In this document: positions 423 to 24,055 of the stretch, piece after piece
How the letters are laid out: every line of letters starts with the position of its first letter
Numbering within the stretch: position 1 is the stretch's first letter
Virus record (IMG/VR): IMGVR_UViG_3300042731_002757
Location: 1 to 24,331 of that record
From: a virus
Direction: 5' to 3' (one strand)
DNA: 24,331 nt
Notes under the pieces: generated by a model
Seen by the model: the letters and a program-made list of their open reading frames with translations, nothing else
Databases searched by the model: none
What the model was told of the DNA's origin: nothing
Position numbers and translations under genes: made by a program

Positions 423-925
423 GATCATTAACAACCAAAGTCACAAGCGCGGTAGAGTCAACCGGCACAGTGCCGCGCTATCTTGTACGGCTAGGATACG
501 ATCCTGTGCTGAGGTGGTCTACAGTGGAGACGCTCACATGTGATGGTGTGTCATGGGATGGTTCCGCTGGCGTATCTGTCTCGTCAATCTCTAGCGCTTC
601 TGCATCTGTCGTAATACCAAACCACGATAACAGCATGGGAGCTGTGGTGCTGGGTGATGGCATCAGGGACATAACAGCAGATATCTATCAGCTGTATGGA
701 GCAGCGCCACATGCGGCAGGTGATGCCGTGCACCTCTTTAGCGGGGTAATTGATAGCGTGCCGTCAATAGATGATTTTGTCACGCTGTCGCTCAGGTCTA
801 CTGGGTCTGCTGTCGCGCACACACCGAGAGTGCGGCTGTCTCTGTTTGTTGGTGATGATATGCCAACGCCAGGGACGCGCATCCAGTGGAATGGCGACGT
901 GTTGATTTTGGAGTCGTCTACATGA
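419..925 (+). CDS. Tail assembly / tail-tip protein (DUF2163-like)
   Basis: A 168-residue, mostly beta-strand protein between the tape measure and the J-like tip protein. The central segment (DGIRDITADIYQLYG, then HLFSGVIDSV) and the C-terminal part (PTPGTRIQWNGDVLILE) resemble phage tail proteins of the DUF2163 type, which join the tail tube to the tip complex. It starts in an ATGA overlap with the tape measure, and its own TGA stop overlaps the next gene's ATG at 922. The three genes are therefore probably translated as a coupled unit. Family assignment is from memory of the pattern; a distal-tail or hub role is inference from position. Confidence 0.5.
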   Translation: MRSLTTKVTSAVESTGTVPRYLVRLGYDPVLRWSTVETLTCDGVSWDGSAGVSVSSISSASASVVIPNHDNSMGAVVLGDGIRDITADIYQLYGAAPHAAGDAVHLFSGVIDSVPSIDDFVTLSLRSTGSAVAHTPRVRLSLFVGDDMPTPGTRIQWNGDVLILESST

Positions 926-3555
926 CAAATCGATTGCCTGACTATCCTGTGATACCATCTGCGCCTGAGCCGGTCACCGCCACACCAGCACAGCGATCTG
1001 TTGTCAGTAGGACGCGGATCAATCGCGTCTCAAGACAGACACGCGAGCGGTCGCTATCTTATGCTGGGCACGGCGCAAGGGTGCCTATTGTATACGGCAA
1101 GGCCAGGCTTGGTCCTTTGGTGGCCCAGGCCGTCACCTATCAAAGCCATCTTGTCATGTGCCTTGTGTGGTGCGTCGGCGAGATCGAGGCAATTGACGGG
1201 CTGTATCTACAGGATGGGTCTGCCGCTCCAGCGTCTGTGACCGCCACGCACTACACCGGCACCACGACTCAGGGAGTTGATCCCACACTTGCTGCCGCCA
1301 TATCTGGCTGGACGCGCGACCTTGTCGAGACGGTTAACGGCGAGACTGTCGCGCTTGCTTACTCGGTGGTAAGTATAGCTCAATCGCGTGACATGGATAT
1401 ACCGTCGTTTGTCGCAGAAATCCGAGGCAAAAAGCTATATGATCACCGCGAGGTGACTCACGATATCGATGATCCTACCACATGGGAGTACACCGAAAAC
1501 CCCGCTCTGGCTCTGGCCGACATGGAGATGTCCACTGTATACGGTCGAGGCAACAGCTTGGACTGGGATAGCGTGGATGACGTTGCAGATGATTGTGATG
1601 AGATCGTTGCCGCAACAGAGGCAAGGCGCAAGCTTGGCCTGGTGATAGATACCAAGTCACCGGTTGATGACTGGGTTGATACTCTGTCTGTATATGCTGG
1701 GTGCTATGTCAATGTGGACGGCGACACAACACGGCTGATCAGTAATCGCCCTGCGTCGCCGGTTGCATCACTCACAGCAGCAGATATAGTGTCCAGGTCG
1801 GACGGCGCTCCTGATATTGATATCAGCATAAGATCGATGCTGGATGTCCCAACCGTCATGCACATACAGTACACCGATACGACCGGCGATGTATGGCGCG
1901 ATGCGTCAGCGTATGCGTATGCCGATGGCGTGCTTGCCGGCACCACCGAGTGGAGAGAGTCTACAGTCAGGCTGCCAGGTATCACCAGATACACGCAGGC
2001 ATATCGCGAGGCCGTTGAGCGCCTCAATATGTTGGCGTTAACAGATCTTGATGTATCGTGGCTCACCCATGATGAGGGCCTTAAATACCAGGTCGGTGAT
2101 GTGGTCACCGTCACGACCGGAAGAGGCCTGACCGCAAAGCAGATCAGAGTCACTGACATCGTACCACCAGAGCCTGGCCGTTGGCGGGTGTCTGGACATG
2201 AGTATCAGGATGCCGTCTATAGCGATGCCGTCGAGTCAGAGCCGACATACACTGACACCGATCTACCGTCGCCGCTCAATCCACCAGCGCCTACTGGCCT
2301 GACTCTTGCAGAGGAAGTGTATCAGGGTTTGAATGGTATATGGGCGTCACGTATCGCAGTTGACTGGGATGCGTCAGAATATGTGTATCTCAATCAGTGG
2401 GATGTTGAGGTATACGATGGAGCGACCTTGGTATTTCGCGGGTCGACCTCTACCAATAGCTATGCTTCGCCAGCCGTCAATGATGATACTGAATACACCG
2501 TCAAAGTACGCACTGTATCTACCGTCGGCGCTCAATCTTCTTGGGCAGAAGATACCATCACAGCGGCCGGCAAATCGCTGATACCGTCAGACGTGCCAAG
2601 CGTAGATGCCTATGAGGTCGGTGGCGAGACTAGGGCAAACTGGACACCTGCGACCGATGTTGATATATGGCGGTATGAGGTGAGGTATGCTGCGGTTGGC
2701 GCAAGCTGGGATGCCGGCGTCGTAATTGATCGCGTGGATGCCTTGCGCCTGGTGTCTGGTGAGGTGCCGCCAGGGACATGGGATCTGATGGTCAAGGCCC
2801 TGGATTCTATCGGACAGTATTCGGCCAATGAGGCGCGCTCCACATACGTGGTGACCAGTGACAGCGGTGCGTATATCGTAGACTCAAACGATTTCGATTC
2901 GCCAACACTCACCAACATGCACGAGTACAAATTGTGGCGCGGCGACAGCCTGACAAGATATGTCACGGATGCAGGTGATACTGCAGCCAGTATTTTTACA
3001 GGTGACCTGACAGCTTATACTGATGTGGCGGCAACATATCACTCGTCATGCACATCAGAGGTACTATCAGAGACATGGGATGCGACATATAGCATCACTG
3101 GTACGTGGTCAAGTCATGCTGATAGGGAGGAGCTTGGAGCCACCACCACACTTGAGACATACCTCGAGCTATCGGATGACGATATAGACTGGGATCAGTA
3201 TGCATATCTCACAACCAAGCGGGCCGCAAGATACGCCAGACTGCGCGCCAAGACCACGACAACCGGCACGCTCTATTGCACAATGCCGGAATGGTCTGCA
3301 AATGTCAACGTGATCCCGCGTGTTGAGACTGGATCTGGCACAAGCAGCGCATCCGGTGGCGTCACGATATCCACAGTGAACCAATATGCGGCAGCACAGT
3401 CTATTAAGATAACGCCTTTAGGTACTGCGTCACGTCCGTGGACTGTCGACAATATCCAGGTACTGTCTGATCACGTCGAGTTCGACGTCTATATCTTTGA
3501 TTCAGATGGCAATCTTGTCGCCACGCCTTTTCAATGGGAGTTTAGAGGAATTTAA
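922..3555 (+). CDS. Tail-tip / host-specificity protein (J-like, central tail hub)
   Basis: An 877-residue protein. I chose the ATG at 922 over one at 886 because it forms an ATGA overlap with the previous stop and has GGAG eight bases upstream. The N-terminus carries the hallmark GHGARVPIVYGKARLGPLV (about residues 49-67) and a nearby VWCVGEIEAIDGLYL. Both are typical of phage tail proteins related to lambda J and the central tail hub. Residues ~452-551 and ~552-650 look like two fibronectin type III domains (start PPAPTGLTL; VEVYDG; TEYTVKVRTVS). The rest is a beta-rich receptor-binding-like region. The protein should sit at the tail tip and contact the host surface. It is shorter than lambda J (1132 residues). 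It is followed after 3 bases by the next tail gene. Confidence 0.8.
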   Translation: MTNRLPDYPVIPSAPEPVTATPAQRSVVSRTRINRVSRQTRERSLSYAGHGARVPIVYGKARLGPLVAQAVTYQSHLVMCLVWCVGEIEAIDGLYLQDGSAAPASVTATHYTGTTTQGVDPTLAAAISGWTRDLVETVNGETVALAYSVVSIAQSRDMDIPSFVAEIRGKKLYDHREVTHDIDDPTTWEYTENPALALADMEMSTVYGRGNSLDWDSVDDVADDCDEIVAATEARRKLGLVIDTKSPVDDWVDTLSVYAGCYVNVDGDTTRLISNRPASPVASLTAADIVSRSDGAPDIDISIRSMLDVPTVMHIQYTDTTGDVWRDASAYAYADGVLAGTTEWRESTVRLPGITRYTQAYREAVERLNMLALTDLDVSWLTHDEGLKYQVGDVVTVTTGRGLTAKQIRVTDIVPPEPGRWRVSGHEYQDAVYSDAVESEPTYTDTDLPSPLNPPAPTGLTLAEEVYQGLNGIWASRIAVDWDASEYVYLNQWDVEVYDGATLVFRGSTSTNSYASPAVNDDTEYTVKVRTVSTVGAQSSWAEDTITAAGKSLIPSDVPSVDAYEVGGETRANWTPATDVDIWRYEVRYAAVGASWDAGVVIDRVDALRLVSGEVPPGTWDLMVKALDSIGQYSANEARSTYVVTSDSGAYIVDSNDFDSPTLTNMHEYKLWRGDSLTRYVTDAGDTAASIFTGDLTAYTDVAATYHSSCTSEVLSETWDATYSITGTWSSHADREELGATTTLETYLELSDDDIDWDQYAYLTTKRAARYARLRAKTTTTGTLYCTMPEWSANVNVIPRVETGSGTSSASGGVTISTVNQYAAAQSIKITPLGTASRPWTVDNIQVLSDHVEFDVYIFDSDGNLVATPFQWEFRGI

Positions 3556-3558
3556 ATC

Positions 3559-3936
3559 ATGGCCTATACCCACTTTGACAGAACAACTCCTGATGCCGCC
3601 ACACAAAGTATAACAGAAATCACGACATCTACAAGGGCCAATTTCGCCGCGCTCCAAGACGCCATCATCACAACCGGCACTGTTCCGCAGTGGGATGCCG
3701 AGGCGCAGGATAGCGACGGCGGTACTCCGCCAACTACGCCGGAGACCCCAGATCAGATAGTGTACAGCAAAGATACCGAGCGAGTCAAGGTGGCAATCAC
3801 TTGGTCCGGTGATGATCTAATGACGTCCGCAGTCTTTAGCTACTCATCTAATGGCGGCACCGACTACGACTCGATGGGTACTATCACCATCACATACGAC
3901 GTAAACGACAACTACCTGTCGCATGCGTGGAGCTAA
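3559..3936 (+). CDS. Small phage tail protein, unknown exact role
   Basis: A 125-residue protein starting at an ATG with AGAGGA about nine bases upstream, inside the end of the J-like gene. The N-terminus (MAYTHFDRTTPDAATQSITE, then TRANFAAL) matches a kind of short protein often found right after J-like genes. The middle is a Pro/Thr-rich linker (GGTPPTTPETPD, about residues 54-65), and the C-terminal half is beta-rich with a repeated TITITYD-type pattern. It is probably a virion or tail-fibre component. I know of no enzymatic motif in it. Confidence 0.6.
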   Translation: MAYTHFDRTTPDAATQSITEITTSTRANFAALQDAIITTGTVPQWDAEAQDSDGGTPPTTPETPDQIVYSKDTERVKVAITWSGDDLMTSAVFSYSSNGGTDYDSMGTITITYDVNDNYLSHAWS

Positions 3937-3939
3937 ATA

Positions 3940-4875
3940 ATGATACCATTACTTGCTAATATCCCGGCTCGCCTTAAGACCCTGACAGACAGACTCACTG
4001 CGGCGCGGGCATCCAACCTTGACAATATCGACTCCACTACGATGGGTCGCCTGGATGTTGCTGTATCGACGGTTGGAAAGGTCCGCAAGACCCAGGTCTT
4101 TACTTCGTCCGGCACGTGGCCCAAGCCTGATGGCGTGGACTCTGTGCGCGTGATACTTGTCGCAGGCGGCGCAGGCGGTGGATCTGTTGACGCCAATACG
4201 GTCAATCGATGCGGCGGCGGCGGCGGCGGCGGTCAGGTCATTGAGCGCGACCTTGCGGTGACCGATGACATCACAGTCACAATCGGCGCCGGTGGCGCGG
4301 GCGGCACTAGCGGAACCGTCGGATCTAATGGCGGCAATAGCACATTGACTGTTGGCGCGTCACTGACGGCTTACGGTGGCACAGGTGGAGGCGTTGGGTC
4401 CAGTACGTCTACAGACAGAGATGGTGTAGATGGTAACGGCAATACAGGCGGCGCAGGCGTGTACTTATCGACAGGCGTTGGTGGTAATGGTGCGGGTGCC
4501 GGTGGATCGCCAGAGACACTGGCTACCACGTCATCTGGCGGTGTTGGTGGTGTGCCTACGTATGGATATCGCGGCGGCTTTGCATTTATCCCGTCAAACT
4601 TATATGGCATGCTGCATCCTGGTCCTGGGCTGTGTGGATATGGCGGCGGCGGAACCGGCGGATCGAGGTACCCGCTTACTGATGCAACTAACGGCGCATT
4701 TCTTACAACCGCCGTCGATGGCGGCGGCAGTGGTGCCGCTGGAACGGCTGGTGCCGGTGGTGATGCTGTTGCCAATACGGGCGGCGGCGGCGGCGGCGCG
4801 TTCAGCTCAACAGCCACTCAGTACGATGGCGGTGACGGCGCAGACGGCATCTGTATTATCACCTGGTTTGAGTAA
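3940..4875 (+). CDS. Glycine-rich tail-fibre protein
   Basis: A 311-residue protein that is roughly one third glycine over residues ~70-300. A helical N-terminus (residues 1-45) is followed by the typical opening TQVFTSSGTWPKPDGVDSV, which precedes glycine-rich fibre domains in many phages. The polyglycine-II-like core has GGAGGTSG and GGGGGGG stretches, and it ends CIITWFE, the usual closing strand of this family. Such domains form the receptor-binding tips of tail fibres. The start has GGAG seven bases upstream. Several Gly runs are encoded by perfect GGC repeats (near 4211 and 4781). Confidence 0.75.
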   Translation: MIPLLANIPARLKTLTDRLTAARASNLDNIDSTTMGRLDVAVSTVGKVRKTQVFTSSGTWPKPDGVDSVRVILVAGGAGGGSVDANTVNRCGGGGGGGQVIERDLAVTDDITVTIGAGGAGGTSGTVGSNGGNSTLTVGASLTAYGGTGGGVGSSTSTDRDGVDGNGNTGGAGVYLSTGVGGNGAGAGGSPETLATTSSGGVGGVPTYGYRGGFAFIPSNLYGMLHPGPGLCGYGGGGTGGSRYPLTDATNGAFLTTAVDGGGSGAAGTAGAGGDAVANTGGGGGGAFSSTATQYDGGDGADGICIITWFE

Positions 4876-4880
4876 GTGAT

Positions 4881-5276
4881 ATGGCTAAATTCGCAATCGT
4901 TATTGATGGGGTGATTGATAATATCTTGGTGGCAGACTCGCACCCGGCCGGCATAGATGTGACCGGTCTTAGGTGTGGTCCTGGGTGGACGTATGACGGC
5001 GAGACTTTTTCGCCGCCTGTTCGTCCGGTAACACCCGATCCGCCGAAAAAGTGGAGCGCGAGAAATTTTATTGGGGAGTTCACGCTGGCAGAGCGCGGCG
5101 CTATATTGGCGGCAAGCCAAACAGACTCGATGATCTCTGCATATATCCTTACGCTACAGGTGGCTGGCACGGTACGCGCAGAGGATCAGGACACGATAGA
5201 TGGACTGCACTATCTAGAGTCACAAGGACACATCGGCGCTGGTCGCGCAGATGAAATATTGGGAGTATCATCATGA
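4881..5276 (+). CDS. Tail-fibre-associated / fibre assembly-like protein
   Basis: A 131-residue protein. The N-terminus FAIVIDGVIDNILVADS (residues 4-20) and a GWTYDGETFSPP segment form the small domain common in phage fibre-associated and fibre-assembly proteins. A Pro-rich linker follows (residues ~45-57), then a helical C-terminal domain with the pattern Er-aI--a-q-D---------l-v-g-v and a final L-shQGhIg--R--EIL. These proteins usually follow the fibre gene and either chaperone or decorate it. The gene lies 5 bases after the fibre stop, and its stop overlaps the holin-like start (ATGA). Confidence 0.6.
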   Translation: MAKFAIVIDGVIDNILVADSHPAGIDVTGLRCGPGWTYDGETFSPPVRPVTPDPPKKWSARNFIGEFTLAERGAILAASQTDSMISAYILTLQVAGTVRAEDQDTIDGLHYLESQGHIGAGRADEILGVSS

Positions 5277-5650
5277 GTATACTGGATCACATCAATCCTG
5301 TGAGTAACGTCGTCAAGGAGACTGGCGAGGCGCTTGATAACCTGTTTACCTCTGATGAGGAGCGGCTTGCCGGTCGAGCGATCTTACAAAAGCTACAAAT
5401 AGCCTATGAGTCTGAGCTGTCCAGACGTCACGAGGCGGACATGAAATCAGATAGCCGCTTTGCAAAGCTTGTGCGGCCAGTAACTCTGGTATGCTTATTG
5501 CTTGCCGTTGTTGGCTTGGCTGTTACCGATGGCAACATTGGCGAATTTGTCATTAAGGAAAAGTGGATCGACCTGCTTGAAACGCTGGCTTCAGCAGCAT
5601 TCGTGTTTTACTTTGGTGGCAGATCAATCGAGAAGGCGTTCAAGAAATAA
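5273..5650 (+). CDS. Holin-like membrane protein (3TM holin / GTA-holin-like family)
   Basis: A 125-residue protein with an amphipathic N-terminus (MSILDHINPVSNVVKETGEA), a charged coiled segment (residues ~27-62), and two clear hydrophobic segments at ~68-85 (VRPVTLVCLLLAVVGLAV) and ~101-115. The tail is basic (GGRSIEKAFKK). The order and the RPVTL motif before the first membrane helix match the 3TM phage holin family, which permeabilises the inner membrane at lysis. It is the last gene of the rightward block and overlaps the preceding gene by ATGA. No endolysin gene is adjacent in this window, which is unusual for a lysis cassette. Lysis function is therefore inferred from family resemblance only. 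Confidence 0.7.
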   Translation: MSILDHINPVSNVVKETGEALDNLFTSDEERLAGRAILQKLQIAYESELSRRHEADMKSDSRFAKLVRPVTLVCLLLAVVGLAVTDGNIGEFVIKEKWIDLLETLASAAFVFYFGGRSIEKAFKK

Positions 5651-5654
5651 AAAA

Positions 5655-5675
5655 GACCCGGATCTAATCCGGGTC
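5655..5675 (-). terminator. Intrinsic terminator for leftward transcription, at convergent junction
   Basis: A 9-bp perfect stem GACCCGGAT / ATCCGGGTC with a 3-base loop. On the - strand the hairpin is followed by six T then ATTT, a classic intrinsic terminator for the leftward genes. On the + strand it has an A-tract before and no T-tract after, so its effect on tail-gene transcripts is uncertain. It lies five bases after the holin-like stop. Confidence 0.85.
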
Positions 5676-5703
5676 AAGGTCTGGTTATTCTGTTGGCAAG
5701 GAA

Positions 5704-5931
5704 TTAATTTACTTGCTTTGGTGTCAGCCTATACACATCGCCATTGTACTTGATCGTGTCAATAGACAGTCTCTCAGGTGTTGATGGCACCTCCCACCAT
5801 ACACCTCTTACCCCTTCTGCCGGCATAGTCACTCTATCGCTGTGCTCCTCGGTGTACTGCCAGCCATCACCCTCTGTGTATCGCAAGACCCGCGTAAATG
5901 TCGGTGTGTGATATTTGTATGTGTATTGCAT
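5704..5931 (-). CDS. Hypothetical protein, 75 aa
   Basis: A small Tyr/Thr-rich protein starting MQYTYKYHTPTFTRVLRY, with GVWWEVPSTPERLSID in the middle. I chose the ATG at 5931 over the GTG at 5937 because GGAG lies 7 bases upstream. It is the last gene before the terminator and the distal gene of the four-gene leftward unit under the promoter at 6649-6676. I do not recognise a family. The probable beta-strand content and aromatic residues suggest a small folded domain. Confidence 0.6.
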   Translation of the reverse strand: MQYTYKYHTPTFTRVLRYTEGDGWQYTEEHSDRVTMPAEGVRGVWWEVPSTPERLSIDTIKYNGDVYRLTPKQVN

Positions 5932-5933
5932 AA

Positions 5934-6101
5934 TCACTCTCCAAAATGATTCTTCAGCGCCTCAATAACTGCAACAGGACTGTTCTTTGTGCCGCCTGGT
6001 ACGCTGTTGATGATTGAGTATACGCGAGCCACGCCGTAAATCATAATCAGCTTGTTAGCGTATTGCTGCGCTTGTTTTGTTAGTGCGGATGGTTTAATCA
6101 T
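5934..6101 (-). CDS. Hypothetical small protein, tandem paralog A (55 aa)
   Basis: A 55-residue ORF with GGAGAG six bases before the ATG. It shares the core NKLIMIYGVARVYSIINSV (12 of 19 positions identical) and the C-terminal FGE with the gene immediately upstream, so the pair is a tandem duplication. It overlaps that gene by ATGA and ends 2 bases before the next start. It is mostly helical with a moderately hydrophobic core. Function unknown. Confidence 0.65.
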   Translation of the reverse strand: MIKPSALTKQAQQYANKLIMIYGVARVYSIINSVPGGTKNSPVAVIEALKNHFGE

Positions 6102-6277
6102 GATTGCTCTCCGAATTGTGCGTCGAGTGCCGCATGTACGGCAGTTATATAGTCTAATGACAGGCTGCTTGATTGGACACTGTTCACTACAGAGTATACC
6201 TGTGCAAGCCCGTGTGTCATTATCAGCCTGTTGATCCTGTAGATCATTTGTACGTATTCGTTGCCGTGATGTTCCAT
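6098..6277 (-). CDS. Hypothetical small protein, tandem paralog B (59 aa)
   Basis: A 59-residue ORF whose core NRLIMTHGLAQVYSVVNSV matches the downstream neighbour. It ends in AQFGEQS. The RBS is weak (GGCAGA), so expression may depend on coupling to the gene upstream. The conserved LIM--G-A-VYS--NSV core under divergence elsewhere argues that both copies are translated. Function unknown. Confidence 0.6.
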   Translation of the reverse strand: MEHHGNEYVQMIYRINRLIMTHGLAQVYSVVNSVQSSSLSLDYITAVHAALDAQFGEQS

Positions 6278-6292
6278 AATGGTGTCTGCCTG

Positions 6293-6607
6293 TTAGTGTA
6301 ACTGACCGCCACTTGCTTCCATCAGGTTACTGATGGTGGCAAGGTCGGTAATGTCTTGTATCACAAATGCTTTGCCGTCCACATCGTCGATGTATGTGTC
6401 ATGTAAACGCACCACAATCGTGCCAGCGTTTACGCCGTCACATACAGCCAACACATGATCAGGCAGCGGCACCACATCAGAGATCAGTGCAAGCACGTAA
6501 GTATCTTGACAGTACACACTGATCACGCGAGCGCTCATTTTGGCTATCCTGATCAGTGTGGCTGCGTCTGCTGCCGTCCTGGCGTTTGTGAAGAGGTTGA
6601 TGAACAT
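6293..6607 (-). CDS. Hypothetical protein, 104 aa
   Basis: The first gene of the leftward unit. I chose the ATG at 6607 (MFINLFTNARTAADAATLIR) because AGGAAA lies just upstream; the longer frame would begin inside the promoter. An N-terminal helix (residues 1-28) is followed by alternating beta-strands (RVISVYCQDTYVLALISDV; GTIVVRLHDTYIDDVDGKAF). No family is recognised. The transcription start predicted from the promoter at 6649-6676 gives a short leader of about 35 bases. Confidence 0.65.
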   Translation of the reverse strand: MFINLFTNARTAADAATLIRIAKMSARVISVYCQDTYVLALISDVVPLPDHVLAVCDGVNAGTIVVRLHDTYIDDVDGKAFVIQDITDLATISNLMEASGGQLH

Positions 6608-6648
6608 GTCTGTTTCCTGTATGTCTGTTTGTCTCTCTGTTAATAGTA

Positions 6649-6676
6649 ATAATAGCATACACTGACACGGTGTCAA
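6649..6676 (-). promoter_or_regulatory. Sigma-70-like early promoter, extended -10, leftward
   Basis: On the - strand: TTGACA (6671-6676), 16-base spacer, TATTAT (6649-6654), with TGC directly before the -10. Upstream of the -35 is TTTTGTTCC, related to the motif in the repeated promoters of the 20.7-22.9 kb region. It serves the four small genes at 6607-5704 and lies just past the stop of the A1-like gene. Confidence 0.8.
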
Positions 6677-6685
6677 GGAACAAAA

Positions 6686-8209
6686 CTACTGAGACGCAAG
6701 CTCACGCATCATTGGCGATAGCTTGCCCTTGACGGCAGATACCAGACCGCGCTTACCATTGGCATATATAAGGCCGTGTGTGATCATCCAGCTAGAGTAT
6801 CCGACAGCATAATCATGCTCAAGCTCTGCTGTGCCAACTTGATAACACCCCTTATATATACCTGGCGTGTGCGGGTGACCCGTCATTGTCTTGTGGCCTG
6901 TGCGGGCGAATGCCTTGCCGCTGCCTTTGGTTCCGTTTGGTCCGCGATGTCCGTGCTGTGAGACATCAATACTAGCAATCTCGCGAAGCTGGTTCCCATT
7001 CACAAACTCCGGAACATTTTTTGCGTATCGCTCAACAAACAGCCTAAACAGATCGCGGCTATTGTTGGTGCGCGCAAGCTCGCCAAGCTCGTAATAGAGG
7101 TCTATATTTACAGGGTCGCGCTCAGGACGAAAGCGATTGAACCACTGCGCCAGATGGTCGTGGTGGTTAGATGATATAACAAGACAGTGAGCTTCTTGCT
7201 TATCCAGAAATCTGACAGACTGCATAAGCTCTTTTCGGATGTCCTGGTCTTGATGTGTGAGCTGCCACAGCTTATCTTTTGCGTGGTGGTGCGAATGCGC
7301 GCTATGGTTGTGTAGGTCATGGTAGACCTGATTGACCGGCTGCAGTGCGCGTGTCACCTGATCAAGCAATCTTCTGTTACGTGGCTTAACTTCGGCTATG
7401 TGGATATCGCCATAGACAATAGCCTCCGGCCGATAGCTCTCGCCATCGCAGCCATCTGGCGTGTAGTACTTGTCAAAAAGATACGCGCCGTGTCCGTCAT
7501 AGTGTACCTCGGTGGTCCAATATGAGTCGCCCTCGACCTCGATGAAGACCGCCGACAGTGAGTGATGAAAGGCGGCCTTTTGCGCGCGAGGTGATCCGCC
7601 ATATCCTTTTTTGCTGATCGATCCAGTGGTGCGGATCATCTTTGGTAGCACATGCTTAGATGTCGGCACCATCTCCATCGCTACCTGTGGATGTCCGTAT
7701 ATCTCAGACTGGATACCAGCAGCATTATTCATCCCGGCCAAAGGATTGATATTGGTGTAGTTGATGTGTGTGTTGCCACGTATCACAAGATTTTTATTTA
7801 GCCGTACGTCCTTGTTGCAGATGTACGGCACGATCTCAACTGGCCACCTCATGGATCGCTGTATGCCCTGGTGAAAAAGATCTGGATTCCTATAACGCGC
7901 CGGTATTAGCAGATAGCATGCGTCCAGATCATCCGCCATCGCCTTTAGTGTCTGGTGCCAGCCGGTGACGATCTGTACGTCGTTAGTTGCGGACGCGATC
8001 AAAAATCGCTTGTGCTTCTTGATCTCGCTGGCCTTTGTTTCCGGCAGGATCTGCGGAGCGTCATACAGTCTTGTCGTTGTGCGCGTCTTGCATGACGGGC
8101 ACCGTAAGCGAGTGCGCCCGCTGCCGGCCTTGTGCTTAAGGGCTTTCATTCCTCTATTGCCGCATACTGGGCAATAGAGATCGTTATTGATCTCTATTGG
8201 TTTTGGCAT
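6686..8209 (-). CDS. T5 A1-like metallophosphoesterase with N-terminal zinc ribbon
   Basis: A 507-residue protein. Residues 13-40 form a four-cysteine zinc ribbon (C13, C16, C37, C40) of the kind seen in transposase/InsA-type DNA-binding ribbons. The C-terminal half carries metallophosphoesterase-type metal motifs in order: GDIHIAE (D268, H270), YHDLHNHS (~297-303), SSNHHDH (N348, H349), HGHRGPNG (H419, H421) and GHPHTPG (H445, H447). This series matches the phage T5 A1 first-step-transfer protein family, implicated in host DNA degradation early in T5 infection. It has a good RBS (GAGAGGATA). It follows three micro-ORFs, whose last stop (TAG) lies one base before its start. A role as a metal-dependent DNase or phosphodiesterase is inferred. 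No T5 A2 partner is visible nearby. Confidence 0.6.
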   Translation of the reverse strand: MPKPIEINNDLYCPVCGNRGMKALKHKAGSGRTRLRCPSCKTRTTTRLYDAPQILPETKASEIKKHKRFLIASATNDVQIVTGWHQTLKAMADDLDACYLLIPARYRNPDLFHQGIQRSMRWPVEIVPYICNKDVRLNKNLVIRGNTHINYTNINPLAGMNNAAGIQSEIYGHPQVAMEMVPTSKHVLPKMIRTTGSISKKGYGGSPRAQKAAFHHSLSAVFIEVEGDSYWTTEVHYDGHGAYLFDKYYTPDGCDGESYRPEAIVYGDIHIAEVKPRNRRLLDQVTRALQPVNQVYHDLHNHSAHSHHHAKDKLWQLTHQDQDIRKELMQSVRFLDKQEAHCLVISSNHHDHLAQWFNRFRPERDPVNIDLYYELGELARTNNSRDLFRLFVERYAKNVPEFVNGNQLREIASIDVSQHGHRGPNGTKGSGKAFARTGHKTMTGHPHTPGIYKGCYQVGTAELEHDYAVGYSSWMITHGLIYANGKRGLVSAVKGKLSPMMRELASQ

Positions 8210-11551: not shown

Positions 11552-11892
11552 GGTTGCGCCCTCTGCTCGTGCATGGCGTTTTGTTTCTCGATATATTCGC
11601 TACACGGATCATCGTCACCGTCGGCGCAAAATGCGTATCTTGTCTTTATTGTAGATCCGGCGACATAACACACGCTGGCAAATCTATGTGGATACGCGCC
11701 TCCACAGCCGCACTCAAACCAAAACTTGCCGCCGTCTTCAGTTACCAGGTCGCGCATAAAGGTCTGGTTTTGATGCTCGCGCTTTACTGATGCGCCTTGA
11801 ACTTCGTCGAACCAGAACTCGACTATGTCTCCGACATGAATTGGTGTCCCGTAATGGTCGTCATGACCAATGTATTTGCGCTCAGTCGTCAT
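11548..11892 (-). CDS. Hypothetical protein, 114 aa (YopX-reminiscent)
   Basis: I chose the ATG at 11892 (MTTERKYIGHDDHYGTPIHV) since GAGGAG precedes it within the end of the nuclease gene; the longer frame runs antiparallel to nothing useful. The segment GTPIHVGDIVEFWFDEVQG, then TEDGGKFWFECGCGGAYPHR, has the small beta-barrel look of YopX or SH3-like phage proteins. Several Cys (CGCGG, CYV, FCAD, DPCSEY) could bind metal. The overlap with the upstream nuclease is 11 bases. Family link is tentative. Confidence 0.55.
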   Translation of the reverse strand: MTTERKYIGHDDHYGTPIHVGDIVEFWFDEVQGASVKREHQNQTFMRDLVTEDGGKFWFECGCGGAYPHRFASVCYVAGSTIKTRYAFCADGDDDPCSEYIEKQNAMHEQRAQP

Positions 11893-12757
11893 CTTTTTTT
11901 GACTCCTCAAATAGCGCCTTATACTCAAGGCTTGTGTATGTATCTTTCGCTGGATGCTTGTATCCTTCCGGCCCGTGCACGAAATCGCCGTAGTCAATCG
12001 CGAGCGCTTCCGAGTTGGCTGATTGGATCTCACACCCTAATGATAACATAAACGCAGGGTGAATCAAGTGCCGGCCACAACTTTTATTCCCGAAAGCACA
12101 TTCAAATTTCCCGTCGACCACAGACACATTGGCACAGGTCTTGCAGTGTATTTCAGGGATGTCGCCGAACTTGCAAAAGTCGCGATACTCACACATATTG
12201 CAGCGCCAGTCATCCTCGGCTGGAGGCATGTCCTCTGACTCGATGACGTGGTGGATCTCGTCGTATCGTAGCTGGGCGAGCTGGTCGTCGTATTCAATGG
12301 CCAGCTCCACCAGCTCCGATGTATCCTTGTTCAGTATGCAGTAGTGAGTCTCTGTGACCTGGCCGATGTCATCTATCTGTCCAGACAGTAGCATATATAT
12401 CTGTACCTGCGACATATAATAATCAGGTATGCCTTTCTTGACCATCTCCTTGTATCGGCGAGTGTTGGCGGTCTTCAGCTCAAGCAGCTTTACTGCACCA
12501 CCATCTGGACACGTGACAATTCCGTCGATGTGGCCCATTACCTGTCCCAACTGTCCTTTCAGCTCATACTCGCGATGCGATATCTTGTATCCTCGCCCTT
12601 CCAGGTCTGCTATTATCACGTCTTCGCACGCATGGCCAATACCAAATGTGCGCAGTTGCTCTGGAGTGTAAACGCGCTGAAATGCCTGGCGAAAAGACAG
12701 CCACATTTTTCGATGGCAATGGCTCCAGGCTGAGGCACCTAAATAGTCTCTTGGCAT
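11882..12757 (-). CDS. PD-(D/E)XK exonuclease, Cas4/RecB-like with probable 4Fe-4S cysteines
   Basis: A 291-residue protein. The nuclease motifs are H42 (GIGHACED), D78 (GHIDGIV), ELK at E93/K95 (LLELKTAN) and the QVQIYM motif (Q117-Y121). C14 (SHCHRK) together with C186, C189 and C195 (CNMCEYRDFC) is the one-plus-three cysteine arrangement that holds an iron-sulfur cluster in Cas4/AddB-type nucleases. A further Cys-rich tail (C205, C208, C220, C227) is unusual and may be a second metal site. It lies next to the SSB-like and Sak4-like genes, so it likely resects DNA ends for phage recombination or replication. RBS AAGGAA is eight bases from the ATG. Confidence 0.75.
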   Translation of the reverse strand: MPRDYLGASAWSHCHRKMWLSFRQAFQRVYTPEQLRTFGIGHACEDVIIADLEGRGYKISHREYELKGQLGQVMGHIDGIVTCPDGGAVKLLELKTANTRRYKEMVKKGIPDYYMSQVQIYMLLSGQIDDIGQVTETHYCILNKDTSELVELAIEYDDQLAQLRYDEIHHVIESEDMPPAEDDWRCNMCEYRDFCKFGDIPEIHCKTCANVSVVDGKFECAFGNKSCGRHLIHPAFMLSLGCEIQSANSEALAIDYGDFVHGPEGYKHPAKDTYTSLEYKALFEESKKDDD

Positions 12758-12770
12758 GGTTTATTCCTTT

Positions 12771-12788
12771 CCGGGGCTTGCGCCCCGG
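12771..12788. other. GC-rich stem-loop between SSB-like and nuclease genes
   Basis: A perfect 7-bp stem CCGGGGC / GCCCCGG with a TTGC loop in the 47-base gap between the SSB-like stop and the nuclease start. There is no T-tract on either side, so it is not a typical terminator. It may tune nuclease expression (pausing or mRNA end protection) relative to the SSB-like gene. The nuclease RBS begins a few bases after it. Confidence 0.55.
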
Positions 12789-12804
12789 TTGAATTGTCGG
12801 CTAC

Positions 12805-13356
12805 TTAAAAGGGGATATCATCATCAAAACTGTTACTGGACTGCGGCGTTTCGACCGGCTTGGTCTGTGCTTGCCGTTGTGGCGCTGGCTTTGTTGATCC
12901 GGATAGCGCGCCGAGTTTGCCATACCCAGACACCCAGTTATTCTTGGTTTTTTCTCCTGTCTCTCTGTCTTTGAATGTCAATAATAAAACCCTGATTTCT
13001 AACGGCTTGTTTATGACACACTGCAAGTCCATGTCTGTTGGCTCGGCTTGTGCTTTGCTAAGCTGACCGCCTGACAGGCCATCCAGCACAGCAAGCTTGT
13101 CAAGCGCTGTATCTTTTTGCTTGTCGGTGCCGTACACGCGCAGCTTATCGAACTGAACGCGCCCTTTATATTGACCATCTACCACATCATGCCTGACGTT
13201 AATATAGCGCTCACCACCCCAGGTTGTCCACTTGATTTCTGATATCACCACAGTCAGCACGGTTTTATCGGGGAATGGCTCGAATCCGCCGCCATTAGAT
13301 TCAAAGCTGTCTTGTGGCGTTACTGCTTCGCCATTTGATTTTTGCCAAAAGCTCAT
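12805..13356 (-). CDS. Single-strand DNA-binding protein, SSB-like tip (DUF669-like position)
   Basis: A 183-residue protein with a beta-rich body (LTVVISEIKWTTWGGERYIN) and a Gln/Pro-rich disordered linker (~150-172). Its last six residues, DDDIPF, are the conserved protein-interaction tip of bacterial SSB. The N-terminal body is not an obvious OB-fold of host SSB type, so it may be one of the phage-specific ssDNA-binding families. It is placed between the Sak4-like ATPase and the exonuclease, the usual recombination-replication cluster. The leader AAAGAGGAAATTAAATC before the ATG is nearly the same as that of the Sak4-like gene. Confidence 0.7.
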   Translation of the reverse strand: MSFWQKSNGEAVTPQDSFESNGGGFEPFPDKTVLTVVISEIKWTTWGGERYINVRHDVVDGQYKGRVQFDKLRVYGTDKQKDTALDKLAVLDGLSGGQLSKAQAEPTDMDLQCVINKPLEIRVLLLTFKDRETGEKTKNNWVSGYGKLGALSGSTKPAPQRQAQTKPVETPQSSNSFDDDIPF

Positions 13357-13375
13357 GATTTAATTTCCTCTTTGC

Positions 13376-14137
13376 TTACTGTTGCAATGATGGTATGTAG
13401 TCGACCAGCGGATTGACGCCCAGCTCAACCGGGATATCCTCAGTGATTCCATATCGATTTTTTGAGATGTTGGTAGCCGTGGTGTATGTGGTCATGATCC
13501 TGCGGCCTGATGATATGGCCTTTTTGCGGCTATCATCATCGCCCTGGACAAAAGTCTCAAGCTTAATGTACCCAACAAGGTCTACATTATCCACGTACGG
13601 ACTGATCGAGCGTTTATTCAGGCGCAGATCATAGCGTGTGTACGGGTCTTGATCTGGCGGCTCAATCGTCACGGTGTCAGAGTGCGCGATAAATATCACG
13701 TGCATCCCGCGCATATCACGCAGCATGCCACATGCCTTGCGTAGTCTTGCGTGCATCTGGCCAAGCGCCTGTAATCCTGCGCCATATCCACCCAGCGCCT
13801 GGTTGATCGATCGTGGCTTTTTGGGGTCGCTATCAATTATATGCTGACAGAAGAGCTGATCTAGCTGGGTGACAGTGTCGGTGACCAGAGTCTTATACTG
13901 GTGCTCCTCTTGGATAAGAGCCGTCATCTGCTCCCATAGGTCATCTGGCGATGTCAGGACAGGTAGCGCATCCGGTCTCTTGTCGTGTGGTATGGCGGCA
14001 AGTCCGTCCTCGGCACGAATAAAAATCGCATCTGGGAAGGTTGCTGCCGTGCTGGTCTTGCCTATGCCGGCATCGCCAGTAATAGTGCCTATCATCGGAA
14101 GGTCTGCTGGCTTTGTGATCTTGTCTAATATGCTCAT
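13376..14137 (-). CDS. Sak4-like RecA-family ATPase / ssDNA annealing protein
   Basis: A 253-residue single-domain P-loop ATPase. Walker A is GDAGIGKT (21-28), and the Walker B-like strand is YKTLVTDTVTQLD (81-93, D87). A later strand is GMHVIFIAHSDTV. This length and motif set match phage AAA_24/Sak4-type proteins, which act with SSB in single-strand annealing and recombination. The neighbouring SSB-like and exonuclease genes fit. The start has AAAGAGGAAATTAAAGC upstream. It could alternatively be a helicase-loader-like ATPase; the neighbours favour Sak4. Confidence 0.7.
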   Translation of the reverse strand: MSILDKITKPADLPMIGTITGDAGIGKTSTAATFPDAIFIRAEDGLAAIPHDKRPDALPVLTSPDDLWEQMTALIQEEHQYKTLVTDTVTQLDQLFCQHIIDSDPKKPRSINQALGGYGAGLQALGQMHARLRKACGMLRDMRGMHVIFIAHSDTVTIEPPDQDPYTRYDLRLNKRSISPYVDNVDLVGYIKLETFVQGDDDSRKKAISSGRRIMTTYTTATNISKNRYGITEDIPVELGVNPLVDYIPSLQQ

Positions 14138-19982: not shown

Positions 19983-20011
19983 AGTATAGCACATGATTTT
20001 GGTTGTGTTGG
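19983..20011 (-). promoter_or_regulatory. Probable extended -10 promoter, leftward
   Basis: On the - strand: TGC TATACT (-10 at 19983-19988) with a weak -35 CCAACA (20006-20011) 17 bases upstream. An AATTCCC motif upstream of it resembles the AATTCC of the repeated early promoters. It would drive the envelope gene group from 19957 leftward. Confidence 0.6.
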
Positions 20012-20343: not shown

Positions 20344-20526
20344 CTAAATCTCGTCTTCGGCGGCCATTAGGTCTAATATGCCGTCGCACCAGCCGGTGGT
20401 CCAGCACAGCCATGCCGAGGTGCCATAAAAGTACGGGTTTTCAGATCGTTTGCCGTGCACTTGTGCGCAATCGTACCCTGCGTCGTAGATGTCCAGGTAT
20501 TCTGCAAATCGTCTGTTCTCTTTCAT
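20344..20526 (-). CDS. Rmf/CrpP-like small protein, 60 aa
   Basis: I chose the ATG at 20526 (AGGAGC upstream). Residues 14-49 show the pattern of ribosome-modulation-factor/CrpP relatives: YDAGYDCAQVHGK, NPYFYG, then a tryptophan pair in WLCWTTGWCDG. In host Rmf the matching pattern is Y--G-----G-----CPY------W--GW. Phage members of this family are common small proteins. Binding to ribosomes or to an enzyme is possible but unknown for this one. It is transcribed from the repeated promoter at 20704-20731 with a 43-aa gene ahead. Confidence 0.6.
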   Translation of the reverse strand: MKENRRFAEYLDIYDAGYDCAQVHGKRSENPYFYGTSAWLCWTTGWCDGILDLMAAEDEI

Positions 20527-20703: not shown

Positions 20704-20731
20704 ATAGTAGCACAGATCTGGTTGGTGTCAA
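20704..20731 (-). promoter_or_regulatory. Repeated early promoter copy, leftward
   Basis: TTGACA (20726-20731), 16-base spacer ending TGTGC, TACTAT (20704-20709). The upstream motif TTTAATTCC is shared with the copies at 21109 and 22907. It drives the 43-aa and Rmf-like genes. No terminator separates it from the ParB-like gene, whose stop is 5 bases away. Confidence 0.85.
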
Positions 20732-20735
20732 GGAA

Positions 20736-21050
20736 TTAAAATACCATAGTGTCATCATCTGCGAAGTAGAGGGCGCTGTCCCAGATCGCATCGATAAAGC
20801 CATCAATGTCATCATCATCTAGATATGAGATTGCGTCGTAATCGGATGCGTCATACTCTTCTAACTCAGGATCAACGCCGTCGATCAGGGCGGCCTGCAG
20901 GGAGTGATTGCCGTCGATCACGTAGCGTACCTCTTGCCCATCAATCGCAAAAACGGGAGAAACCTGAACGGTGTAATCTTGTGCTTCGCTCTTTTCTGAG
21001 ACGATCTCGTCGTTGATATATGCTTGGCTGCTGATTAATCTGGCTGACAT
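20736..21050 (-). CDS. Acidic ParB/sulfiredoxin-like small protein, 104 aa
   Basis: Residues 33-61 carry VFAIDGQEVRYVIDGNHSLQ, then AALIDGVDP, which matches the DG-HR--AA---G core of ParB/Srx-fold proteins (with NHS in place of the usual HR). The C-terminal half is very acidic (LEEYDASDYDAISYLDDDD). GGAGC precedes the ATG. It is far shorter than chromosomal ParB and lacks a helix-turn-helix, so a partition role is unlikely. It may be a nucleotide-binding early protein. It is the only gene in its promoter-bounded unit. Confidence 0.5.
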   Translation of the reverse strand: MSARLISSQAYINDEIVSEKSEAQDYTVQVSPVFAIDGQEVRYVIDGNHSLQAALIDGVDPELEEYDASDYDAISYLDDDDIDGFIDAIWDSALYFADDDTMVF

Positions 21051-21086: not shown

Positions 21087-21114
21087 AGCATAGCACAATA
21101 GCGCAGGCTGTCAA
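21087..21114 (-). promoter_or_regulatory. Repeated early promoter copy, leftward (boundary element 1)
   Basis: TTGACA (21109-21114), 16-base spacer ending TGTGC, TATGCT (21087-21092). The upstream motif is ACTTTAATTCC. It lies 31 bases after the terminator stem that ends the preceding unit and drives the ParB-like gene. Confidence 0.85.
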
Positions 21115-21165
21115 GGAATTAAAGTAATGAACTTAGACACTAAAAACCCCGGACTGGCCGGGGTT
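21109..21165 (-). repeat. Terminator-promoter boundary repeat, copy 1
   Basis: A 57-base block from the hairpin base to the -35. It aligns without gaps to 22244-22300, with 50 of 57 positions identical by direct count. The hairpin with its T-tract (25 bases) is fully identical; differences are in the short stretch between terminator and -35. This is repeat structure beyond what a promoter and a terminator need separately. Confidence 0.9.
21145..21165 (-). terminator. Intrinsic terminator, leftward, repeat copy 1
   Basis: An 8-bp stem AACCCCGG / CCGGGGTT with a 5-base loop, followed on the - strand by a T-run (TTTTTA counting the stem end). It lies just after the stop of the gene at 21170 and ends that transcription unit. 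Confidence 0.9.
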
Positions 21166-21169
21166 GGTG

Positions 21170-21499
21170 TTATTGCATTGCTTTCATAGCGTCTTGCAAG
21201 CCGGTGAAATATGCTGCCATCTCTTCAGCGGTCGCATACTCGCGGCCATTGAAGATAAAACCTCCTGATTGCGCCTTGACGGTAGGTGCATCGTCCTCGA
21301 TAAGCTCGAACCTCTTGCGTAATGCGGCCCACTTGCCGCCCAGTACAACACGAGCGTTTCCTTGGTTATTGAAATCGATTCGATACCCGCCCCACAGGAC
21401 ATAATATCCTATTATTACCCCGATGTCACCGACATTGTAACACTTCATCGTGTCGTCGGTAATTCGGACCTTCTTGCCTATTAAATCTTTGCCGTTCAT
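21170..21499 (-). CDS. Hypothetical protein, 109 aa (SH3-like N-terminus plus shared C-terminal module)
   Basis: I chose the ATG at 21499 because AGGAGG lies upstream (very strong RBS) and it forms an ATGA overlap with the next gene. Residues 1-68 look like an SH3-type barrel (LIGKKVRITDDTMKCYNVGD, IGVIIGYYVLWGGYRIDF). The last 30 residues (FIFNGREYATAEEMAAYFTG, then LQDAMKA) form a module shared with the gene upstream (13 of 27 positions identical). Last gene before terminator copy 1. Function unknown. Confidence 0.65.
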   Translation of the reverse strand: MNGKDLIGKKVRITDDTMKCYNVGDIGVIIGYYVLWGGYRIDFNNQGNARVVLGGKWAALRKRFELIEDDAPTVKAQSGGFIFNGREYATAEEMAAYFTGLQDAMKAMQ

Positions 21500-21858
21500 T
21501 TGTTTGCCTCCTGTGCGTCGTGCCAGCCGGTTAGATAGATCTTGGCCTCTGCAGCGGTCATGTCCTCGTGTCCGTTGATGTCGAAGAGGTTGCCTTTTCT
21601 GCATATGATGGTTGGGCCATCGTCAGTTGTGGTATGTCTTGAGTCAACCCAATCATCAAATGAGAGTGAAACGTGAGCGCTTTCCTGGAAACGAACCATC
21701 CGAAAGTCTCTGACCAGAATGTCAGTTGGGTATGCATACGTGTCTAGGTCGGCGGCTATGTAGCTCATATCTAGGTCTGGGTTATCAATTAATGCCTGGA
21801 GTTGCTCTGGAGAGTCAACCTCGATGGAAAATTCGCGTGCTGTGATTTTACCGTTCAT
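21496..21858 (-). CDS. Acidic hypothetical protein, 120 aa, sharing the C-terminal module
   Basis: An acidic body (EFSIEVDSPEQLQALIDNPD, MSYIAADLDTYAYPTDILV) ends in the module FDINGHEDMTAAEAKIYLTG, then WHDAQEANK, which is homologous to the C-terminus of the downstream neighbour. GAGGAAAA precedes the ATG, and the upstream stop (TGA) is directly adjacent (TGAATG). Function unknown; the DNA-mimic possibility is only compositional. Confidence 0.6.
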   Translation of the reverse strand: MNGKITAREFSIEVDSPEQLQALIDNPDLDMSYIAADLDTYAYPTDILVRDFRMVRFQESAHVSLSFDDWVDSRHTTTDDGPTIICRKGNLFDINGHEDMTAAEAKIYLTGWHDAQEANK

Positions 21859-22188
21859 TCAGTTTTCCTCATAATGCTGCGTTTTTAGGGTGATAACGAC
21901 TGGATCATCTGTTGGGAGCATGGTTCGGGTGATGCCGGGAAAGTCATACATATGGCCATCAAGCTCATCACGCTCTTGTACGTAGCCATTGGGATACAAA
22001 ACAACATATCTTGTCGTCTCAACAAGCTTTGGCTCTGGTTTGATTCGGTAGTTGCATCGTTCCCAGCTCCAGGTCGGGGTTGTGGCGGGCAGCCATGTTG
22101 GTTTTGGTGCACGAACCATCACATATTCGATTTCTTTACCTGCCTCAAAAGCCTCCATAATCTCGATTTTTTCTCGTGTTGTTGTCAT
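21859..22188 (-). CDS. Conserved phage early protein, 109 aa (YRIKPEPK type)
   Basis: The pattern IEIMEAFEAGKEIEYVMV, a PTW segment, and WERCNYRIKPEPK (~41-54) belongs to a small protein family widespread in phages: helix, G-I-, W-------YR-KP-P. The first gene of the 109/120/109-aa unit, under the promoter at 22223-22249. The first gene of the rightward operon (24118) belongs to the same family, which is notable because they sit in opposite operons. Molecular function unknown. Confidence 0.65.
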   Translation of the reverse strand: MTTTREKIEIMEAFEAGKEIEYVMVRAPKPTWLPATTPTWSWERCNYRIKPEPKLVETTRYVVLYPNGYVQERDELDGHMYDFPGITRTMLPTDDPVVITLKTQHYEEN

Positions 22189-22222
22189 GTTACATGTCCT
22201 CGTGTTTGGTTGATATAGTGAT

Positions 22223-22249
22223 AGTATAGCATGGTCCGAGTGATGTCAA
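22223..22249 (-). promoter_or_regulatory. Repeated early promoter copy, leftward (boundary element 2)
   Basis: TTGACA (22244-22249), 15-base spacer ending ATGC, TATACT (22223-22228), an extended -10. Upstream is ACTTTGGTTCC. It drives the three genes at 22188-21170. Confidence 0.85.
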
Positions 22250-22300
22250 GGAACCAAAGTAATTAGATTGGACATTAAAAACCCCGGACTGGCCGGGGTT
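22244..22300 (-). repeat. Terminator-promoter boundary repeat, copy 2
   Basis: The 57-base partner of 21109-21165, with 50 of 57 positions identical and no gaps. It separates the two-gene Cys-rich unit from the three-gene unit at 22188-21170. Confidence 0.9.
22280..22300 (-). terminator. Intrinsic terminator, leftward, repeat copy 2
   Basis: The same 8-bp stem, loop and T-tract as copy 1. It lies 10 bases after the stop of the gene at 22311. Confidence 0.9.
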
Positions 22301-22883: not shown

Positions 22884-22912
22884 ATAGTACACGACCATTG
22901 GATGGCTGTCAA
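22884..22912 (-). promoter_or_regulatory. Repeated early promoter copy, leftward, without terminator
   Basis: TTGACA (22907-22912), 17-base spacer, TACTAT (22884-22889). Upstream AACTTTAATTCC is shared with the copy at 21109 (17 identical bases from the -35 on). The stop of the split-peptidase second frame lies 24 bases away. Confidence 0.85.
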
Positions 22913-22936
22913 GGAATTAAAGTTGTTGGATCGAGA

Positions 22937-23302: not shown

Positions 23303-23506
23303 CTATAGATACTCTATTTCCCAGGTTGGGTGTAACAGCGTTTGCAGGCCAGCGTTTGGTCCGTCGATTATCCTGCATCGCAGATATTGGTCCTTGCTGC
23401 CAATAATTTCCATGAGTGTTGTGGCGCTTTTATTGCCGCTGTAGCGTAGTCTCCCGCCGCGCTTGGCTGGGACGCTATAGTATTGTCGGATGGATTGCAT
23501 GCTCAT
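23303..23506 (-). CDS. Conserved phage hypothetical protein, 67 aa (VPAKRGGR...LHPTW type)
   Basis: YYSVPAKRGGRLRYSG, later YLRCRIIDG and LHPTWEIEYL, matches a small phage protein family with a -VPAKRGGR-RY-G--- and LHPTW-(V/I)EYL pattern, likely an SH3-like barrel. GAGG precedes the ATG at 23506 by nine bases. It is the first gene of the leftward early operon, under the promoter at 23546-23574. Function unknown. Confidence 0.65.
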   Translation of the reverse strand: MSMQSIRQYYSVPAKRGGRLRYSGNKSATTLMEIIGSKDQYLRCRIIDGPNAGLQTLLHPTWEIEYL

Positions 23507-23574: not shown

Positions 23575-24055
23575 TTGTGATTTATTTGATGCCTATATAC
23601 AAAATACTTATGAGCGGGAGATTTTGTTTTTTTCTTCTTCTTTGTCTTACGTGCCCGTCCCGGTCACTCTTGAATTTACAAATATCTCCTATCTAACTAG
23701 CTTGGCGCCTCGAAGCGACTACGCTAGTTAGATAGGAGATATTTGTAAAGGTTCAGAGTGTGACTGATATTTTTTTAATTAATTAATTCTTTGTTGTTTA
23801 ATTGTAATATAATCAATGTATTATATATGTTTTGTAGAATCTGGATTCAAACAATCAAATAACGCTTTTTTGAGAATATTTTCCCAAAACATAAAAAATT
23901 CAATGTTTTCAATATGGGCAAGTCAATCTGCCCAATTTGCCTACCTCATAATGTTCTCATGATGTGGAAATTTTGCTGTTTTGAGTGATATTGTCTATTT
24001 TAGTGCATATCGTTTAGGTGACAAACTTAAAGTTGATTCTAGATTCAATTAGGTG
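23575..24055. other. AT-rich non-coding region between divergent early promoters
   Basis: No convincing gene. It contains the large inverted repeat (23665-23760), a TTAATTAATTAATT run after it (from about 23776), a long AT-rich tract to ~24050, and a small inverted repeat TGGGCA / TGCCCA (23915-23934). It is a plausible replication origin (inverted repeat plus an easily melted tract) and/or operator region. No iterons or DnaA-box cluster were recognised by eye. Confidence 0.6.
23665..23760. repeat. Large inverted repeat: perfect 27-bp arms, 21-base centre
   Basis: Arms 23675-23701 and 23723-23749 are perfectly complementary (TTTACAAATATCTCC... / ...GGAGATATTTGTAAA). Outside them, 23665-23674 and 23752-23760 continue the pairing with small bulges. 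The centre (TTGGCGCCTCGAAGCGACTAC, split as TTGGCGCCTC and GAAGCGACTAC) is not symmetric. No T-tract follows it directly, so it is not a standard terminator. Confidence 0.95.

Follow-up and report, generated by a model that had tools for sequence, protein, structure and literature searches.

The PeSL elements of T4-like myoviruses are reportedly the subject of Arbiol et al. (2010) and Comeau et al. (2014). As portrayed in PMC4503421 and PMC3950731, they combine an early promoter with a stem-loop and are repeated between functionally uncharacterized small genes in a variable region. PMC3950731 also recounts a case in the archaeal myovirus HGTV-1 (Sencilo et al. 2013), in which a promoter-like box plus an inverted repeat is proposed both to regulate and to shuffle. 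Two other kinds of element come near: morons, which occur in lambdoid and other phages, are defined as segments that one genome has and a relative lacks, each carrying an ORF with a promoter on one side and a terminator on the other (PMC3029335), and the SAS/ESAS repeats of cluster K mycobacteriophages lie at translation starts and consist of imperfect 17-bp inverted repeats with a variable spacer, in which a hairpin was judged unlikely (PMC3203893). Early promoters can also be numerous, as in a Kayvirus with 58 of the sigma70 type and 42 terminators (PMC7698491).

Here, we describe repeated elements from a 24,331-nt stretch of viral DNA (IMG/VR record IMGVR_UViG_3300042731_002757, positions 1 to 24,331; hereafter, the window) and set them beside these systems.

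Terminator-promoter blocks and promoter copies

Two 57-nt blocks, lying 1,135 nt apart in the same orientation, are identical at 50 positions without a gap, and no other same-strand pair of 57-mers in the window matches as well (Table 1); three first-order Markov resamples of the window yielded pairs with only 34, 34, and 36 matches. Both blocks are read on the minus strand, in the same direction as the genes there, and run from an intrinsic terminator through a 26-nt spacer and TTCC to TTGACA, the -35 box of a sigma70-type promoter. The terminator hairpin, AACCCCGGCCAGTCCGGGGTT followed by T5, is the same in both (-13.1 kcal/mol), and a search of the 40,952-bp parent contig with three mismatches allowed found it nowhere else as a terminator.

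The promoter part is more widespread: the minus strand of the window has five copies of TTCCTTGACA (at 6671, 20726, 21109, 22244, and 22907) and the plus strand has none, and every copy has a -10-like hexamer 16 to 17 nt downstream. The terminator is confined to the copies at 22249 and 21114 (two of the five good copies). At P1, a stretch of 20 nt (22904-22923) is identical to 21106-21125, and the remnant P7, at the end of the leftward units, is followed by a different terminator at 5675-5655. Elements begin 0 to 14 nt past the upstream stop codon, except that in the copy at 20731 the stop codon lies inside the element.

Most of what a first-pass annotation of this DNA had proposed is borne out by these data: the two 57-base blocks are alike well beyond the resampled level, they are built from a hairpin terminator, a short spacer, and the start of a promoter (on the minus strand), the copies sit close to stop codons, and the accessory region is divided by the elements into units of one to three genes. 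Its coordinates and counts are correct, those of the further promoter halves at 20726 and 22907 included; the copy at 6671, which it had called weaker, proved to be a full member, and that near 20006 is indeed weak, having lost its -35 box.

Table 1. Coordinates of promoters, terminators, gene units, and recombination genes in the window, with the matching units of L221 and L223
Feature	Position	Strand	Description
P0	23546..23574	-	First leftward promoter; TTGACA, 17 nt, TACAAT; weakly similar to P4
P1	22884..22912	-	TTGACA, 17 nt, TACTAT; without terminator
Unit P1	22311..22848	-	Two small genes, 115 and 62 aa, without family match
Block copy A	22244..22300	-	57-nt composite: terminator, spacer, TTCC-TTGACA
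T2	22280..22300	-	Putative intrinsic terminator; stem 8 pairs, loop 5, T5; closes unit 22848-22311
P2	22221..22249	-	TTGACA, 17 nt, TACTAT; predicted to drive 22188-21170
Unit P2	21170..22188	-	Three small genes, 109, 120, and 109 aa
Block copy B	21109..21165	-	57-nt composite
T3	21145..21165	-	Putative intrinsic terminator; sequence as T2; closes unit 22188-21170
P3	21087..21114	-	TTGACA, 16 nt, TATGCT, extended -10; predicted to drive 21050-20736
Unit P3	20736..21050	-	One gene, 104 aa, PHROG 4807 (unknown function)
P4	20704..20731	-	TTGACA, 16 nt, TACTAT; contains stop codon of 20736-21050; without terminator
Unit P4	20020..20669	-	Three small genes, 43, 60, and 74 aa
P5	19983..20017	-	Diverged copy; -35 box lost; TGTGCTATACTAT kept; leader similar to P4 and P2
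Recombination genes	11882..14137	-	Whole span; PHROGs
Sak4-like annealing protein	13376-14137	-	PHROGs
SSB	12805-13356	-	PHROGs
Cas4-type exonuclease	11882-12757	-	PHROGs
P6	6649..6676	-	TTGACA, 16 nt, TATTAT, extended -10; directly 3' of 6686-8209 stop codon
Unit P6 (distal), first gene	6293..6607	-	104 aa, without family match
P7	5655..5707	-	Remnant TTAATTCCTTGCCA; borderline similarity; end of leftward units
L221/L223 matching unit	L221 4723-5103; L223 3037-3420		
L221/L223 matching unit	L221 5025-5332; L223 2750-3062		
L221/L223 matching unit	L221 5618-5963; L223 2484-2834		
L221/L223 matching unit	L221 5883-6182; L223 1690-1999		

Two observations concern the contents of the units. Adjacent genes of the P2 unit (21170-21499 and 21496-21858) share their C-terminal halves (37.5% identity over 64 aa), indicating that local duplication does occur in this region. 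In the P4 unit, the 60-aa product of 20344-20526 resembles ribosome modulation factor (Pfam RMF, E 0.03, below the cut-off).

The source genome and phages with similar arrays

The window is the right-hand part of the IMG/VR contig IMGVR_UViG_3300035141_000004 (40,952 bp; contig position = window position + 16,621), and since the two are identical over the shared part, the parent contig supplies no variants. Its head genes, as read from translations, follow an HK97-type order (terminase, portal, protease, capsid), and it also encodes a long tape-measure protein and a J-type tail protein, a combination that points to a genome of the siphovirus type. The nearest terminases, 51 to 56% identical at the amino acid level, come from phages of Halomonas, Klebsiella, and other gammaproteobacteria. 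Leftward (minus-strand) genes include a primase-helicase, a Sak4-like annealing protein, an SSB, a Cas4-type exonuclease, and a helicase (PHROGs); this set recurs, in much the same order, in phages of Alteromonas, Idiomarinaceae, and Salicola. No integrase stood out among the annotated genes.

The right end of the window holds about 20 small genes, most without a known family, and among the accessory proteins searched, only the 67-aa product of 23303-23506 found matches, in mycobacteriophages and one Sinorhizobium phage. Its gene, the first of the leftward set, shares 48% identity with one located near the Cas4 exonuclease in many mycobacteriophages, a likeness far removed from the gammaproteobacterial kin of the remaining genome. 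Farther right, the noncoding gap between leftward and rightward genes contains a perfect 27-nt inverted repeat with a 21-nt loop (23675-23749; RNA fold of -48.2 kcal/mol, z -11), which could be a replication site, a control site, or an assembly artifact. On account of this palindrome, a protelomerase was sought in the parent contig and not found. A search of Rfam returned no match.

No relative close at the early region turned up in viral contigs, phages, plasmids, or GTDB genomes, and DNA similarity to that region in phage and plasmid records was limited to short stretches, mostly of an HNH gene. The primase has a close match only in the parent contig (its best phage match, by alignment, is 33% identical in amino acids), contigs matching the capsid protein are 49 to 51% identical, and the helicase retrieved no relative from GTDB genomes. 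A search of viral and genome contigs with the pattern of the 57-base block, a check proposed beforehand, matched only this contig. Nor were repeated TTGACA/T promoter blocks detected, at the thresholds used, in loci with a related primase or capsid gene or in six phage records.

A looser promoter pattern, which is biased towards TTCCTTGACA, turned up other phage contigs in which early promoters are repeated. One of these, L148, has 12 near-identical promoters without terminators. In the 94.9-kb contig L220, a similar terminator hairpin directly precedes two of four near-identical promoters, and a different hairpin precedes a third; judged by these predicted signals, L220 is a second case of the composite terminator-promoter arrangement. 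Its repeats lie at 7942, 5398, and 2274, and methyltransferase-like and HNH genes occur as look-alike pairs in the same array. No relative of L220 was found.

A comparison between relatives is offered by the 64-kb contig L221, with twelve copies of one promoter (array at 2255-7412), and L223, with nine (431-5463). Their cores align mostly at 64 to 75% nucleotide identity, and single-gene units align at 77 to 90%. Four such units stand in opposite order in the two contigs, on the same strand, with most unit ends falling in promoter copies: as aligned, the arrays differ by a reordering of single units, each a gene with its predicted promoter. Because promoters occur at nearly every gene border in these contigs and the shared unit border at L223 2484 has none, they may be passengers there and not causal. 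Both are large phages unrelated to the window, and their elements carry no terminators; by analogy, the reordering of units between repeated early promoters makes cassette exchange at such repeats plausible as a class. The pair lends itself well to the study of promoter-delimited gene shuffling, and it suggests that searching metagenomic phages for genes between such repeats would be worthwhile.

Descent of the copies and competing explanations

Promoter regions were compared by local alignment in pairs, with 300 Markov pairs as the null (maximum, 37; 95% point, 28). P2/P3 (94), P4/P6 (75), P4/P5 (53), and P1/P3 (51) all exceed the null maximum, as do most other pairs among P1, P2, P3, P4, and P6 (44 to 50); P1/P6 is weak, its score of 28 equaling the null 95% point. 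Although P4 and P6 are 14 kb apart, their match sets in 13 nt upstream of the -35 box, takes in the -10 box and the leader, and continues as far as the ATG, and the genes that follow (43 and 104 aa) are unrelated (coding similarity score of 14 versus 23 for the null). At P2/P3, identity is 88% within the block and falls off abruptly at its edges; the flanking coding sequence is at background, with scores of 19 upstream and 16 downstream (null 95% points of 24 to 25). A spacer between a terminator and a promoter needs no set sequence; here, the 26-nt spacers agree at 19 positions (73%; P of about 2e-6 for p = 0.28).

A 57-nt block set with abrupt edges between unrelated coding sequences argues for copying or recombination and against convergence, which the identities in spacer and leader rule out as the sole origin of the likeness. 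Moreover, a spacer conserved at 73% next to genes without similarity is beyond the reach of mutation alone and implies at least one recombination or copying event with an edge at or near the block. On this sequence evidence, the copies share descent, by duplication or recombination, and the contrast between spacer and flanks at P2/P3 is the best, if indirect, support within the window for reassortment. Kept out of this argument is a weak, out-of-frame similarity at the 3' ends of the two genes that precede P6 and P4 (6690-6839 versus 20746-20895; DNA score of 46 versus a shuffled-control maximum of 33 to 37), in view of which P4/P6 homology could be longer than the regulatory part.

We consider it fairly probable that the elements descend, as copies, from a single ancestral regulatory module and delimit gene units, with promoters and genes reassorted at or near the modules. 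Such a module would comprise a host-type sigma70 promoter and a 5' leader, fused in two cases to an intrinsic terminator that would close the preceding unit. The leftward region would then consist of separately promoted units holding one to three small genes apiece, with a terminator insulating two of the unit borders; the likely function is that of insulated early transcription units. We infer promoter activity, terminator activity, and early timing from consensus matches and known families, by which the host sigma70 RNA polymerase would use these promoters early. It is the unrelated coding sequence around P2/P3 and downstream of P4 and P6 that suggests reassortment of promoters and genes at or near the modules, which would have proceeded as has been suggested for PeSLs and morons. 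Going by known families, the Sak4, SSB, and Cas4-type exonuclease of the phage could carry out recombination over some tens of identical bases, and direct 57-nt repeats spaced 1,135 nt apart would permit the clean loss of the three-gene P2 unit.

It is possible, if rather unlikely, that the elements are purely regulatory: many near-consensus host promoters and terminators would express the early genes separately, gene conversion or selection would maintain the likeness of the copies, and there would be no role in gene exchange. Similar arrays of early promoters are common in phages, including a Kayvirus (PMC7698491) and L148, and promoter-like sites in this region exceed chance (41 observed versus 24.6 expected), as this explanation would have it; taken alone, however, it accounts neither for the conserved spacer nor for the abrupt end of homology at unrelated genes nor for P6 as a single distant copy.

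The two 57-nt blocks might instead stem from one local duplication of a whole unit, whose genes were then replaced or diverged, leaving the block as a passive trace. Their proximity and shared orientation fit such an event, as do the common C-termini of two genes between them, but it appears improbable as the full account: a block that is 88% identical despite a free spacer, between flanks without similarity, is unattainable by mutation alone, so recombination at the block edges would be needed even after a local duplication, and P4 and P6 would go unexplained. Still more improbable, in our estimation, is a phage regulator that binds the -35 region plus the upstream TTTAATTCC, with selection on this site producing the likeness. 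The nine bases preceding the -35 box are well kept in P1 to P4 and partly in P6, as a binding site would require, yet the likeness continues past any such site, into the terminator and spacer at P2/P3 and the leader at P4/P6, and no candidate regulator was identified.

An ancestral module with reassortment therefore remains our preferred reading, to which we attach, as a doubtful extension, the idea that the phage's own Sak4/Cas4-exonuclease system uses the mobile terminator-promoter cassette as a homology anchor, by which early host-takeover genes would be gained, lost, and reordered. Were this true, the PeSL principle would be a general phage strategy extending beyond T4-like phages. If such modules do anchor gene exchange in small siphoviruses, short regulatory repeats could serve to predict accessory-gene turnover in phages, and the sequence between them could be searched for new small-gene cassettes, candidates for takeover or antidefense genes.

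Comparison with described systems

Set against PeSLs, the window offers the same composite of early promoter and stem-loop in two copies (22244-22300 and 21109-21165), as well as several intergenic copies among small genes that mostly lack a family match. It differs in that PeSLs belong to T4-like myoviruses and the present genome is of the siphovirus type, and in that copies are few, with a stem-loop in only two of five; the likeness, moreover, is one of anatomy and not of compared sequences. The first-pass suggestion of a PeSL-like system in a siphovirus-like genome thus holds for the anatomy and the siphovirus type. We regard the elements as PeSL-like in their predicted anatomy and, given the stem-loop in two of five copies, the non-T4-like setting, and the conjectural nature of any shuffling, do not claim membership in PeSL.

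HGTV-1 is comparable in having a box plus an inverted repeat before many genes of one genome part, and this outside the T4 group; its box, however, is of the archaeal TATA type and most genes of the region have the motif, whereas the window has sigma70 boxes in few copies. In the manner of a moron, the unit at 22188-21170, between P2 and T3, consists of ORFs with their own promoter and terminator, both predicted from sequence signals, but morons are defined by presence or absence between relatives, and the regulatory parts in the window repeat one another. With SAS/ESAS, the elements share their position as repeats at small-gene borders in siphoviruses; unlike SAS/ESAS, they follow stop codons and carry sigma70 boxes, and their hairpin is a putative intrinsic terminator. 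Early-promoter arrays are ordinary in phages (PMC7698491), and the composite arrangement is one of a known type that may have been little described in this phage group.
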